From the NCBI GenBank assembly GCA_036141575.1, contig JAYZXF010000017.1, positions 204,077-268,076 on the forward strand: a DNA stretch of 64,000 nt. Direction: 5' to 3'. This document shows positions 12,569 through 37,317 of the stretch, one piece after another. The DNA comes from Pseudomonadota bacterium. Its GTDB lineage: Bacteria > Pseudomonadota > Alphaproteobacteria > UBA2136 > JAPKEQ01. Position 1 is the stretch's first letter. Each line of letters starts with the position of its first letter. A program made the position numbers and the translations under genes. The notes below the pieces were generated by a model that saw only the letters and a program-made list of their open reading frames with translations, searched no databases and had not been told where the DNA came from.

Positions 12569-13024
12569 ATGACACATATTGGCTTCTATCAAGTGCGAGA
12601 CCCAATGCCGTCTACGACGGATAAAACACTTGCGCATCTTCTAGAAAAAGTGACCTCTGCAGGGCACCGTGTTCTTGTTGTGTGTCCCAATGCTCAGCGT
12701 GCAGAGCGCATTGATGAAATGCTTTGGACGTATAAAGAGGAGAGCTTTCTTGCACACGGCCTAGAGGCTGATGGTGTGCATGTGGATAAGCATCCTGTAC
12801 TGGTAACCACAAAGCCAGAAAATGCCAATAATGCAGATATTCTTGTGATGGTTAGTGGCGCGCAGGGCGGCTCTATTGCTGAGTATGAAAAAGCCATTGA
12901 TATCTTTGAAGGACATGATAACCAAGTGACCAAAGCACGCCAGCGTTGGAAGCTTTATAAAGATGCAGGGTTTGACCTTTCTTATTTTGAGCATACAGGT
13001 ACTGGATGGCAGAAAAAAGCCTGA
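12569..13024 (+). CDS. holC: DNA polymerase III chi subunit HolC
   Basis: 151 aa clamp-loader accessory protein that contacts single-stranded DNA binding protein. The start THIGFYQV, the segment RVLVVCPNAQRAERIDEMLW, the near-invariant TYKEESFLAH (family WTF..SFIPH) and the C-terminal KARQRWKLYKDAG..LSYFEHTGTGW match the family over its full length. It stands alone after the pepA terminator and before the six-gene array. Confidence 0.93.
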   Translation: MTHIGFYQVRDPMPSTTDKTLAHLLEKVTSAGHRVLVVCPNAQRAERIDEMLWTYKEESFLAHGLEADGVHVDKHPVLVTTKPENANNADILVMVSGAQGGSIAEYEKAIDIFEGHDNQVTKARQRWKLYKDAGFDLSYFEHTGTGWQKKA

Positions 13025-13065
13025 ATTGTATTCAGTTAGTATACTCTTTTAATTCTTTTTCCTGA

Positions 13066-13094
13066 TTGACTGTGTAGTTTTAAATCGATAGCCT
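13066..13094 (+). promoter_or_regulatory. Promoter of the first array gene pair
   Basis: TTGACT (13066-13071), 17 bases, TAGCCT (13089-13094). The same TTGAC-17-TA layout recurs before three more array genes. Just upstream are TTGTATTCAG (13026-13035) and a GTATAC, resembling the palindrome seen at the Ter-type cluster. Confidence 0.6.
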
Positions 13095-13151
13095 CATTCT
13101 CGATTTATGATCTATCGTTTCTTTTCTTTCTCTTTTTTAGGAGACCAATCT

Positions 13152-13538
13152 ATGGGACTTAGTGTTCAAGACACGTTTAATGACCTGAACGAAGCTATTG
13201 ATGAGTTTGGCATGTCGGTTATGACCGTTATGTTTACTCAAGGCCGTGAAGGTATGACTGATCTGGAAGGTTCTGTTGCCAAGTTGAGACGTATTTTGGC
13301 TAAGCTGAATATGCTGCCGCAAGAACATATTGATGGCGTTAAAGACTTGCTGAAAGAAAGTGGAGCTGACGTAGAGTTGAAAATTCTGCTGCAGGAATCC
13401 GCTGGCATGACTGAAGACGACATGAACCAGATTGAAAATGCTCATGTTACTGATGATATGAGCCCTCAACAGCGTATGAATGCCTTCCTTATGATGGCAA
13501 CGCATATCAATATCAAAATCGCAAAGATTTTGACCTGA
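13152..13538 (+). CDS. Unknown small acidic protein, array gene A
   Basis: 128 aa, first gene of a six-gene array. I do not recognise a family. The sequence is rich in Glu/Asp, Met and Leu, and heptad-like spacing suggests several amphipathic helices (for example LEGSVAKLRRILAKLNML and IDGVKDLLKES). There is no signal peptide or membrane segment, so it is probably cytosolic. ATG 13152 is chosen over 13107 because AGGAGA lies 8 bases upstream, after a long pyrimidine tract. Gene B follows after 27 bases without an intervening terminator, so A and B form one unit. Confidence 0.7.
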   Translation: MGLSVQDTFNDLNEAIDEFGMSVMTVMFTQGREGMTDLEGSVAKLRRILAKLNMLPQEHIDGVKDLLKESGADVELKILLQESAGMTEDDMNQIENAHVTDDMSPQQRMNAFLMMATHINIKIAKILT

Positions 13539-13565
13539 CACTCTTTTTTCTGAAGGATATATATT

Positions 13566-13943
13566 ATGTCAGAACTTACACCTTTTGATTGCCAGCAACT
13601 CTCTATTGGTGTTGGTGATTCTTTTGTAAATAATGTCAAGGTGGCCATGGGCGAGTGGGCACAAGAGTTCCAAAAAAGAGGCGCAGTTGCCGCTTCAAAA
13701 ATTATGGGTGACCTGTTCCGTGATCTTGTGAATGAGATGCGCGGTCATGCGGCACTTGTTGAGGCATCGAAGAATGCCTTGCAGGGACATGCTGAATTTC
13801 AGGCTGCGCGTGAAGAGTTCCAGCACACTATTGATATGATCAACATGCTGGATGTGGAAGACCCTCTGACACCTGAGATGGAAGAGCTGTTTGGCAACCT
13901 AGAGCTGATTGAAAGCGTTTACCAAGAGCTGCAGAGGCTTTAA
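13566..13943 (+). CDS. Unknown small acidic protein, array gene B
   Basis: 125 aa, family not recognised. Predicted all-helical from composition: WAQEFQKRG, IMGDLFRDLVNEM and a long C-terminal acidic helix pair around LDVEDPLTPEMEELFGNLE. No export signal. The ribosome site GAAGGA comes after a CTTTTTT tract, the same leader style as the other array genes. It ends in TAA followed by AAGCGAA repeats and then a TGCACCC hairpin terminator. Likely translated from the gene A transcript. Confidence 0.7.
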   Translation: MSELTPFDCQQLSIGVGDSFVNNVKVAMGEWAQEFQKRGAVAASKIMGDLFRDLVNEMRGHAALVEASKNALQGHAEFQAAREEFQHTIDMINMLDVEDPLTPEMEELFGNLELIESVYQELQRL

Positions 13944-13966
13944 AAGCGAAAAAAGCGAATTTGAAG

Positions 13967-13989
13967 TGCACCCTTGTTGGGTGCATTTT
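13967..13989 (+). terminator. Terminator after array gene B
   Basis: TGCACCC-TTGTT-GGGTGCA followed by TTTT. The stem is the same as the one after gene D. Confidence 0.8.
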
Positions 13990-13991
13990 CA

Positions 13992-14020
13992 TTGACAATT
14001 CACCAGCATCAGCTTAGATA
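13992..14020 (+). promoter_or_regulatory. Promoter of array gene C
   Basis: TTGACA (13992-13997), 17 bases, TAGATA (14015-14020), placed seven bases after the preceding terminator stem. Confidence 0.7.
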
Positions 14021-14063
14021 CATGCCAATCAAGAATCTCTTCACCTTTTTAAAGGAGCGTTAC

Positions 14064-14435
14064 ATGCTCGATAGACACGACGTGATGTCTCTACGTAACT
14101 GCGTAAACTCTGTCACTCATGCTTATATTGCGCTGGCAGACGAGATCATCCAAAACCATCCCGCAGTGGATTATGCTGACCTGTATGTGAAGGCGCATCT
14201 GTTGCAACAGTCCATTGAAGATTTGTACCGCAGTGCTGGTCGCTCTGCAGAGGTTAGGGGCTACTTACGCACCTTCTTTGATGATGCCGCCTTTATTGAG
14301 CGCTATAATGCATATCAAACTTTCAGGCAGGAACAGGCCAAACGCTCTCGTAGCACCCCTGAGAAGGACGAGGAAGATGTTCTCGGCTTTCTGGCCTTTT
14401 TTGAAGGGCGCTACAAGCAAATCATGAGCGGTTAA
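14064..14435 (+). CDS. Unknown small protein, array gene C
   Basis: 123 aa, family not recognised. ATG 14064 (MLDRHDVMSL) is preferred because AAAGGAG lies 7 bases upstream and the promoter at 13992-14020 would cut off the longer frame starting at 13974. Helical and charged: a Tyr/Asp-rich middle (VDYADLYVKAHLLQQSIEDL) and a basic patch QAKRSRSTPEKDEED. No membrane segment. TAA is followed at once by ATCGATT and then a terminator hairpin. Confidence 0.68.
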   Translation: MLDRHDVMSLRNCVNSVTHAYIALADEIIQNHPAVDYADLYVKAHLLQQSIEDLYRSAGRSAEVRGYLRTFFDDAAFIERYNAYQTFRQEQAKRSRSTPEKDEEDVLGFLAFFEGRYKQIMSG

Positions 14436-14445
14436 ATCGATTGTT

Positions 14446-14475
14446 AAATGCACCTAAAAAATCAGGTGCATTTTT
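14446..14475 (+). terminator. Terminator after array gene C
   Basis: AAATGCACCT and AGGTGCATTT pair across an eight-base A-rich loop and run into TTTTT. Confidence 0.8.
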
Positions 14476-14486
14476 CATATGATCTC

Positions 14487-14515
14487 TTGACAAGGCTGCG
14501 AAATGATCCTAGATG
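14487..14515 (+). promoter_or_regulatory. Promoter of array gene D
   Basis: TTGACA (14487-14492), 17 bases, TAGATG (14510-14515). It begins within 12 bases of the end of the preceding terminator. A TGTGAATACACA sequence overlaps the start of transcription. Confidence 0.7.
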
Positions 14516-14565
14516 TGAATACACACACTTAAATCTGTCACACCTTTTTTCTTGAAAGGAAACTC

Positions 14566-14901
14566 ATGCGTTCAATGGAGGAATGTCTGCGCCGTCTGGC
14601 GCATGGTGCTGTTGCAAGCTACACTGATGCTGTGCGTCATCTGGAGGAGGATGAAAACAAAGCATCTGCTCATGCAACGTTGGCTCTCATGCTGATTGAG
14701 AAAGCCCACCAAAAATCAAAAGAAGATCGTGAACATATCACAATTGTTCAAGATGAGCTGGGGAAAGATGAAAGCTTTGCTGTCATCATTTCACAGAGGG
14801 AGGAATACCAGGATTCGGCGCCTACGTCAGGCCTGCTTAATGAACTTCATCAAAAGCTCACCCGCTTTGACGTTCTTTATGTCTTGCTTATGCGCCTGTA
14901 A
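14566..14901 (+). CDS. Unknown small acidic protein, array gene D
   Basis: 111 aa, the smallest of the array, family not recognised. Charged helical sequence (RRLAHGAVASYTDAVRHLEE, AHATLALMLIEKAHQKSKED) ending in a hydrophobic FDVLYVLLMRL that is too short for a membrane span. The leader is CCTTTTTTCTTGAAAGGA, with the ribosome site 5-6 bases before ATG. TAA is followed by ATCGATT and a TGCACCC terminator, nearly the same 3' end as gene C. Confidence 0.68.
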   Translation: MRSMEECLRRLAHGAVASYTDAVRHLEEDENKASAHATLALMLIEKAHQKSKEDREHITIVQDELGKDESFAVIISQREEYQDSAPTSGLLNELHQKLTRFDVLYVLLMRL

Positions 14902-14914
14902 ATCGATTCTGCAA

Positions 14915-14937
14915 TGCACCCATCTTGGGTGCATTTT
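14915..14937 (+). terminator. Terminator after array gene D
   Basis: TGCACCC-ATCTT-GGGTGCA followed by TTTT, differing from the gene B terminator only in the loop. Confidence 0.8.
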
Positions 14938-14947
14938 GCTTTTGTGT

Positions 14948-14977
14948 TTGACAGAAAAAAGCAGCTGAGCCTTATAT
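14948..14977 (+). promoter_or_regulatory. Promoter of array gene E
   Basis: TTGACA (14948-14953), 18 bases, TTATAT (14972-14977). The -10 region CTTATATAGG also occurs upstream of the exchanger gene. Confidence 0.65.
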
Positions 14978-15024
14978 AGGGCGAACCTTTATCTTGTTTC
15001 TCTTTTTTCATGAAAGGACCTTTT

Positions 15025-15408
15025 GTGTCTCAGAATCAAAATCCGTCTATGGCGCTGCGTCAGGCAACTGTCGCTTATGAACAGTCCTGGGCTGTTGTGC
15101 GTCACGTGCTTTCACTTATGGATGGTGACCGCTACGATGAAGCCTTTGATTACATCCAAAAGAATGGAGAGCCATTTAATGGCCTTGTAAAGGCACTCCC
15201 AAGCTGCAAACCATCTGATATTCATGCTATGGCTTCTGAGAAGGTTTCTCAAGATGAATGGGTTGGAATGATGATGTCCTTGCAGGCATTTGTGATTTTG
15301 GAGCAGCAGCTCCGTGACACTGACTCAGAAAGCACATTCTACCAAGTGGTTGAGTGGGCACGTGGCTCCCTTGCCATTTTGTTGGCCCTTACAGGGCGCG
15401 GCCGTTAA
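15025..15408 (+). CDS. Unknown small protein, array gene E (GTG start)
   Basis: 127 aa, family not recognised. The GTG at 15025 (VSQNQNPSMAL) is chosen over an ATG at 15010. In the other array genes the leader reads T/C tract, TGAAAGGA, 5-7 bases, start codon; here ATGAAAGGA occupies the ribosome-site position, so that ATG is part of the ribosome site. The protein is helical with hydrophobic patches (WAVVRHVLSLM, WARGSLAILLAL) but no signal. TAA is followed by TCGAAC and a terminator. Confidence 0.66.
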   Translation: MSQNQNPSMALRQATVAYEQSWAVVRHVLSLMDGDRYDEAFDYIQKNGEPFNGLVKALPSCKPSDIHAMASEKVSQDEWVGMMMSLQAFVILEQQLRDTDSESTFYQVVEWARGSLAILLALTGRGR

Positions 15409-15414
15409 TCGAAC

Positions 15415-15444
15415 AAACCCTCACAAATTTGTGGGGGTTTTTCT
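15415..15444 (+). terminator. Terminator after array gene E
   Basis: AAACCCTCACAAA pairs imperfectly with TTTGTGGGGGTTT, then T's. Confidence 0.75.
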
Positions 15445-15452
15445 TATTCTGT

Positions 15453-15481
15453 TTGACAGCGTCAGGAGAGGGGCATACGAT
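15453..15481 (+). promoter_or_regulatory. Promoter of array gene F
   Basis: TTGACA (15453-15458), 17 bases, TACGAT (15476-15481), 9 bases after the preceding terminator. Confidence 0.7.
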
Positions 15482-15529
15482 CTGTCTGATTTTTATCTTA
15501 TTTTCTCTTTTTCTGAAAGGATTTATCCT

Positions 15530-15916
15530 ATGTATAGCGTTGCACAAGCAATGGCTGGTGAACTAAATCAGCTCAAAACCCATTTTGAATTCATGAGCGT
15601 GGCTGCCATGATGCAGGAAGTTGACGTGTTCAATGAGCGTCATGAGAAAGCCAAGGCAATTGTTGCCAGCGTAATAAAAGCGCTGGATGCAGATGATTCC
15701 AACCAGCTTGCAGGCGCAATTATGCGTGAGCTGGAGGGTACTGAAATGGCTGCCGCTTTGAAGGAGATGGCTCAAAGTGAGCCTGAAGATGCCACTGAGG
15801 ACATGAACGCCGTCAAAGAAATGGTTGGTGAAGACAGTGAGCTCTTTACTGTGGTGAAGGAACTTGTTGAATTCTCCGACGAACTGCGTGCTTTGGCCTT
15901 GCGCCTCCTTAACTAA
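15530..15916 (+). CDS. Unknown small acidic protein, array gene F
   Basis: 128 aa, family not recognised. Strongly acidic (for example SEPEDATEDM, EMVGEDSE) and predicted helical throughout, with no export signal. ATG 15530 is fixed by GAAAGGA eight bases upstream. The frame extends to 15314, but that part runs back through the promoter, terminator and gene E. TAA is followed by AATCGAC and a CGCCC hairpin. Last gene of the array, directly before ndk. Confidence 0.68.
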   Translation: MYSVAQAMAGELNQLKTHFEFMSVAAMMQEVDVFNERHEKAKAIVASVIKALDADDSNQLAGAIMRELEGTEMAAALKEMAQSEPEDATEDMNAVKEMVGEDSELFTVVKELVEFSDELRALALRLLN

Positions 15917-15929
15917 AATCGACTTTTGA

Positions 15930-15955
15930 AAACGCCCTGTAAAAAGGGCGTTTTT
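15930..15955 (+). terminator. Terminator after array gene F
   Basis: AAACGCCCT and AGGGCGTTT stem, then TT-rich tail. Confidence 0.8.
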
Positions 15956-16047: not shown

Positions 16048-16473
16048 ATGGAACGTACGTTCTCTATTATCAAACCAGACGCAGTTTCTAAAAACGTTGT
16101 TGGTGCAATCGTTGACCGTTTCGAGAAAAACGGCCTACGTCCAGTAGCGATGAAAAAAGCAAGGCTATCTAAAGAGCAGGCTGAACTATTTTACGCTGAG
16201 CACAAAGAGCGCCCATTCTTCGGCGAGCTTGTAGGCTTCATGACAAGTGGTCCAGTTGTTCTTCAAGTACTTGAAGGCGAGAGCGCGATCACTAAAAACC
16301 GTGAGCTAATGGGTGCAACTAACCCTAACAACGCTGAAGAAGGCACAATCCGTTACGACTTCGCTCGTGGCAACGATGACCTTTCAGCGAACGCTGTACA
16401 CGGTTCTGACTCTCCAGAGGCAGCTGCTCGTGAAATCTCTTTCTTCTTTAAAGATGAAGAGCTAGTAGGTTAG
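16048..16473 (+). CDS. ndk: Nucleoside diphosphate kinase
   Basis: Transfers the gamma phosphate of ATP to nucleoside diphosphates through a phosphohistidine. 141 aa. The active-site histidine is in [10 protein letters not shown] (about residue 117). The N-terminal [12 protein letters not shown] and the middle [16 protein letters not shown] are standard. An AAGGAG site precedes ATG by 11 bases. In alphaproteobacteria ndk often lies near holC; here the six-gene array separates them, as if inserted. Confidence 0.97.
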
Positions 16474-16690: not shown

Positions 16691-16705
16691 AATGTGGAGA
16701 CCTCC

Positions 16706-16807
16706 TTATTTCAGGCGAAAGTATACGGCAAACCAGATGTACAAGCCAATGGCAGCGACAGCAACACCGATAACAATGCCAAGAATCACCAGAAGTGCGG
16801 TAGACAT
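16706..16807 (-). CDS. Small single-span membrane protein (33 aa), unknown
   Basis: Peptide beginning MSTALLVILGIVIGVAV and ending in a basic YFRLK: one membrane helix over almost its whole length. AAGGAG sits 8 bases before ATG 16807, which I prefer over a longer frame start at 16891. Together with the 52-aa gene behind it, it forms a two-gene unit divergent from the DUF2066 gene. A GTGTATACAA element lies 75 bases upstream. Function unknown; size and shape resemble small stress or regulatory membrane peptides. Confidence 0.62.
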   Translation of the reverse strand: MSTALLVILGIVIGVAVAAIGLYIWFAVYFRLK

Positions 16808-16960
16808 GATCGTCTCCTTAGATTGAGATTTGTGAAAAGTAACATGTGGTTCAGGAATCTTTTTAATAGCATGAGGGTTTGGTGTATACAAGCCTTTTTT
16901 GCCATTTTTACAAAGCCTTTTTTGTTGTTGAATACACCTATCTCCGTTAAAGTTCCATCC

Positions 16961-37214: not shown

Positions 37215-37224
37215 ACGAAACAAG

Positions 37225-37302: not shown

Positions 37303-37317
37303 AATTCCTATCGTTTA

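Follow-up and report, generated by a model that had tools for sequence, protein, structure and literature searches.

A probable array of fast-diverging paralogous genes between holC and ndk in one alphaproteobacterial genus

In an uncultured alphaproteobacterium, probably of marine origin, the interval that separates holC from ndk holds six consecutive open reading frames (A-F), all on the plus strand and with no other gene among them. This raises the question of whether they are paralogues that diverged in place or unrelated orphan genes that share an expression style. We analyzed the locus within a stretch of 64,000 nucleotides (the window; contig C17, positions 204077-268076) from a genome of 1.85 Mb in 19 contigs (97.7% complete). 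A first-pass annotation had described six small genes of 111-128 codons, and these are confirmed as A-F in the following layout:

12569..13024, +: holC, upstream border (PF04364, 2.6e-35)
13026..13151, +: promoter of unit A-B (TTGACT, weak -10) and pyrimidine-rich leader
13152..13538, +: A, 128 aa, acidic, predicted helical; placed in neither paralogue group
13566..13943, +: B, 125 aa; group {B,C,D}; one unit with A (27-nt gap, terminator absent)
13944..14063, +: B-C spacer with CGA motif, TGCACCC...GGGTGCA terminator, TTGACA promoter and leader
14064..14435, +: C, 123 aa; group {B,C,D}
14436..14565, +: C-D spacer with ATCGA motif, TGCACC...GGTGCA terminator, TTGACA promoter, leader and GAAAGGA
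14566..14901, +: D, 111 aa; group {B,C,D}; predicted model with five helices
14902..15024, +: D-E spacer with ATCGA motif, TGCACCC...GGGTGCA terminator, TTGACA promoter, leader and GAAAGGA
15025..15408, +: E, 127 aa, GTG start; sister-species orthologue at the same locus (46% identity)
15409..15529, +: E-F spacer with TCGA motif, terminator, TTGACA/TACGAT promoter, leader and GAAAGGA
15530..15916, +: F, 128 aa; forms a paralogue family together with sister-species X1-X3; predicted model with six helices
15917..15956, +: array end before ndk, with AATCGA motif and terminator
16048..16473, +: ndk, downstream border (98% identity to ndk of the sister species)

By composition, the six products are soluble and, as had been proposed, acidic (pI 4.34-5.52; GRAVY -0.10 to -0.50). 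BLAST comparisons of all pairs among A-F return nothing significant, which agrees with the earlier impression that they show no clear pairwise identity. The statement that they belong to no recognized family also held: scans of A-F against Pfam, PHROGs, NCBIfam and PADLOC gave chance-level matches only, as did a PDB sequence search. The individual assignments discarded here are F as phrog_846 (E-value 0.003, judged chance-level), F as HEC-01B of PADLOC (E-value 0.0036, 15 bits, unconvincing) and C as OrfB_IS605 (E-value 0.0055, under that model's cut-off). For the candidate functions suggested in the first-pass annotation (stress buffer, phage defence, anti-defence or effector set), these scans thus gave no convincing match to a defence or phage family.

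In a genome of the same order (G006), pepA, holC and ndk are immediate neighbors (about 105 nt), with no array among them. A gain at the holC-ndk site is therefore the simplest reading, and the first-pass claim of an insertion is supported. GC content across the array (40-47%) is similar to that of the flanking DNA. Another genome of this order (G012, locus L044) has a holC-ndk gap of ~520 nt holding an opposite-strand ORF of 127 aa; hence, other lineages may also accommodate insertions here. A separate observation concerns the region just 3' of ndk, where very short single-membrane-helix genes occur on the opposite strand in both the window and the sister species. In the window, this is an ATG ORF at 16700-16830 (-) behind a AAGGAGACGATC ribosome-binding site near 16808 (-); in the sister species, an ORF of like kind (MELLVIAAVVAVIVVVVMRKKKD) lies at about 1299-1370 of locus L033.

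The comparison within the genus is based on one genome, the sister species MAG ANT-120 (JAPKEQ010000061.1), an Antarctic marine MAG of unusually deep position (RED 0.66) and of a lifestyle described as not determinable (PMC10232865). Its interval before ndk contains E, followed by X1, X2 and X3. The E proteins of the two species share 46% identity (E-value 7e-34), X1 and X2 42% (1e-30), and F and X3 33% (5e-8), while the matches of F to X1 (0.002) and X2 (0.004) are weaker yet significant. The F family thus has one copy in the window genome versus three in ANT-120. The spacer upstream of F is most like the one upstream of X3 (score 44), which fits an orthology of F and X3, with X1 and X2 as additional copies. 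Only 11 nt and no terminator separate E from X1 in ANT-120; together with the presence of X1-X3, this means that the sister species have come to differ in both the number of cassettes and the structure of the units. A search of the ANT-120 genome with the A-D proteins found none of them, its contig stopping at E, short of the A-D position.

As judged from codon comparisons, E and F behave as coding, constrained genes, with pS above pN in each pair: E versus its ANT-120 counterpart (pS 0.79, pN 0.38, dN 0.53), X1/X2 (pS 0.67, pN 0.38) and F/X3 (pS 0.71, pN 0.53). In seven downstream neighbors dN lies between 0.08 and 0.18, and in ndk at 0.01; the divergence of E is about 3-6 times that of the seven neighbors, a rough ratio because synonymous sites are saturated. 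The family diverges so fast that sister-species counterparts share 30-46% identity, compared with 98% for the adjacent ndk. Loci diverging at such a pace often signal conflict with phages or rivals. The same divergence bears on the idea that A-F are cytosolic proteins for buffering or stress, expressed strongly and subject to dosage selection. Separate promoters with a near-consensus -35, pyrimidine-rich leaders and acidic helical products would suit such proteins, but dosage selection would preserve likeness, whereas the array copies have diverged below BLAST detection; we regard this idea as quite improbable.

What is more demanding is the kinship among the array genes themselves. Profile tests were scored against 129 helical decoys and 200 shuffles. 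A profile of D and C detects B with 9.0 bits, a score exceeded by 0/129 decoys and 0/200 shuffles. The F-family profile detects E of ANT-120 with 10.9 bits (higher: 1/129 decoys, 0/200 shuffles), and the E profile detects F with 7.5 bits (higher: 2/129 decoys, 1/200 shuffles); the F profile gives only 0.9 bits for the window's own E, and comparing the E-family and F-family profiles with each other gives a weak result. These scores support two paralogue groups at the sequence level, {B,C,D} and {E,F,X1-X3}. In the same tests, A joins neither of them. The view of the genes as fast-diverging paralogues is consequently supported for both groups, with A left outside.

The bridge between the groups is the predicted helix order alone, in D and F. 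AlphaFold models were obtained for D (pLDDT 81, pTM 0.76, alignment of 2 sequences) and F (pLDDT 86, pTM 0.75, alignment of 4 sequences). The helices of D span residues 4-24, 30-53, 55-66, 70-82 and 89-110, those of F residues 4-27, 31-54, 59-68, 72-82, (88-99) and 104-127. Compared without superposition, the two models agree closely in helix order and lengths, with one extra helix in F. Structure prediction had been named beforehand as a check, and clear unrelated known folds as the outcome that would speak against kinship; for D and F the prediction yields similar helical layouts and no known fold. Foldseek searches against the PDB and viral models gave no match at E < 0.001 for either of them.

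Among the weak PDB fold matches of F are the flagellar chaperones 5maw, 5krw, 6gow and 3k1i, of which 5krw also appears for D. Small acidic helical proteins that each serve one substrate, in the manner of secretion or flagellar chaperones, would account for these entries, and the genome has a gene for an export protein of the FlhA family. However, the matches have E-values of 0.5-2.6 and TM-scores < 0.5 and are interspersed with designed bundles, the array adjoins no substrate or export gene, and rapid turnover is atypical of flagellar chaperones, so that we attach only a very slight probability to this function. Phasins, likewise small, variable and helical, were rejected: there is no Pfam phasin match among the products and no PhaC in the genome.

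The layout points to five transcription units, A+B, C, D, E and F, as the first-pass annotation had claimed: A and B lie 27 nt apart without a terminator, the others are separately bounded, and 4/5 gaps between A-F are spacers of 120-130 nt with a terminator and a promoter. The promoter, leader and CGA elements it had listed were all found in the array. TTGACA stands before each of C-F, and A has the weaker TTGACT; a leader rich in pyrimidines (12 or more of 14 bases) is present in 6/6 array genes versus 7/56 other genes of the window; and a CGA motif follows the stop codon in 5/5 terminated array genes, compared with 8/24 terminated and 4/34 unterminated genes elsewhere in the window. Window-wide, the motif (ATCGA, ACGA, TCGA) stands between stop codon and terminator in 13/29 terminated genes; examples outside the array are at 37317, 48407, 62719 and 63191 on the minus strand and at 37215 and 40542 on the plus strand.

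The further proposal that near-identical expression cassettes are a special mark of the array did not hold, apart from the terminators. A consensus promoter scan of the array region yields 6 hits versus 4.6 +/- 2.1 in shuffles, i.e. not above them. The pattern TTGACA-N30-60-TYTYTTTTTY has 10 exact matches in the genome versus 0 for a control pattern, and 8/10 lie outside the array; behind these eight are seven genes without a Pfam match and one that is acyltransferase-like (by eye). Mean leader scores are 23.0 within the array, 20.9 between array and elsewhere, and 21.4 among the leaders elsewhere. Promoter and leader likeness was accordingly rejected as array-specific: the design precedes at least eight other genes, and leader scores are barely higher within the array. 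It may instead be a genome-wide mark of orphan single-gene units. The eight outside sites are spread over contigs C2, C3, C8, C11, C16, C17 and C19, and the seven Pfam-less proteins among them span 61-329 aa.

The terminators are a different matter. A scan of the array region finds 6 versus 2.8 +/- 1.4 in shuffles, i.e. above them, and the terminators of B and D have the stem TGCACCC/GGGTGCA in common but not the loop, exactly as had been noted. In the whole 1.85-Mb genome, the terminator TGCACC N3-14 GGTGCATTT occurs only after B, C and D, the fourth match listed being the C site on the opposite strand. Direct repeats span the gene end and terminator of B, C and D, with spacings of 482 and 466 nt. 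Rfam matches near the F terminator scored under the gathering threshold and were discounted.

These results bear most directly on the reading of A-F as unrelated lineage-specific orphans at a permissive site that owe their uniform look to a genome-wide expression style. The recurrence of the design at eight other genes, seven of which encode Pfam-less proteins, is in its favor, as are the absence of BLAST-level identity among the six and the unplaced A. Yet the F family consists of genuine paralogues, the B/C/D terminator occurs at no site outside the array, the profiles link B, C and D, and the helix order of D and F agrees; on balance, unrelated orphans appear unlikely. A caution nevertheless follows: a genome-wide promoter and terminator style can make genes appear to be kin.

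Outside the genus, the E profile finds nothing significant in 385 genomes of the class or in 94 relatives (overlapping samples), and the F profile has weak partial matches at most (E-values of at least 0.002), the best of them within long frames. The C/D profile has no significant match in 91 genomes besides its own. When E was compared with contigs of 85,000 species, ANT-120 was the sole match. In the sampled data, the array is so far restricted to one genus, in which two genomes carry it. Searches of viral contigs with E, F, C/D, A and B, and of phage and plasmid sets with E, gave no match. Small orphans without relatives outside the genus could in principle be remnants of a phage or mobile element, i.e. 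anti-defence or accessory genes. Against such an origin stand the unconvincing PHROG and PADLOC matches, the lack of hits in viral contigs, the absence of E from phages and plasmids, the absence of attC-like pairs, a GC content of 40-47% like that of the flanks, and the same site in the sister species; we therefore think it very unlikely. An integron gene-cassette array resembles the locus in its consecutive small orphans of single orientation, but array genes have their own promoters and terminators; with 0 RYYYAAC/GTTRRRY pairs (attC-like sites), it was rejected.

Closer likenesses exist to lineage-specific tandem clusters of orphan paralogues, which share with the array the confinement to one genus, the fast divergence and the differing copy numbers between sister species, except that most array units are full promoter-leader-gene-terminator cassettes. 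Polyimmunity loci, as described by Zhang et al. (2012, PMC3482391), are tandem sets of small, distantly related paralogues on one strand. No toxin genes intervene, the content varies among relatives, and the genes lie close together, probably in a polycistronic message. The array is likewise tandem and same-strand, has no toxin genes interspersed, forms one locus in the genome and differs in gene number between relatives (F family, one versus three). Unlike such loci, its genes match no immunity family (Pfam, NCBIfam), its gaps of 120-130 nt carry a terminator and a promoter and delimit mostly single-gene units, and no recombinase was identified beside it. Because immunity families and close polycistronic spacing are lacking, we do not class it as a polyimmunity locus; by analogy, it may work like one.

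Overall, we consider it likely that A-F are a paralogous array. The fuller explanation, which we favor by a narrow measure, is a genus-restricted tandem array that arose by repeated local duplication and divergence, encodes soluble all-helical proteins and is perhaps polyimmunity-like. Small genes for such proteins would have been duplicated repeatedly in place between holC and ndk and would then have diverged. Direct support comes from the E and F families at the same site in ANT-120 with one versus three F-family copies, from the terminator unique to B, C and D, from the far faster divergence of E than of its neighbors, and from the coding character of E and F. A single ancestor of all six is suggested by the two sequence groups together with the likeness of D and F in predicted helix order. 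Each product could be a soluble binding protein with a fast-changing partner, as in biological conflict, a functional step that we infer from the divergence rate, the copy-number change and the lack of conserved partners. The most likely mode would be a standing set of paralogous neutralizing or partner-binding proteins, separately promoted. Several points count against this explanation: A is unplaced, the E-F profile link is weak, the models derive from 4 and 2 sequences, the array occurs in just two genomes and has no toxin, target or phenotype tied to it, and most genes have separate promoters, unlike in described polyimmunity loci.

By analogy, then, a conflict-type, polyimmunity-like function of the array is possible, if doubtful. 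More tentative still is the suggestion of a new family of small helical proteins that diversifies by duplication of whole promoter-gene-terminator units, a conflict system built from individually controlled modules. If true, the binding or neutralizing proteins, each under separate regulation, would form a distinct set in every genome of the genus.
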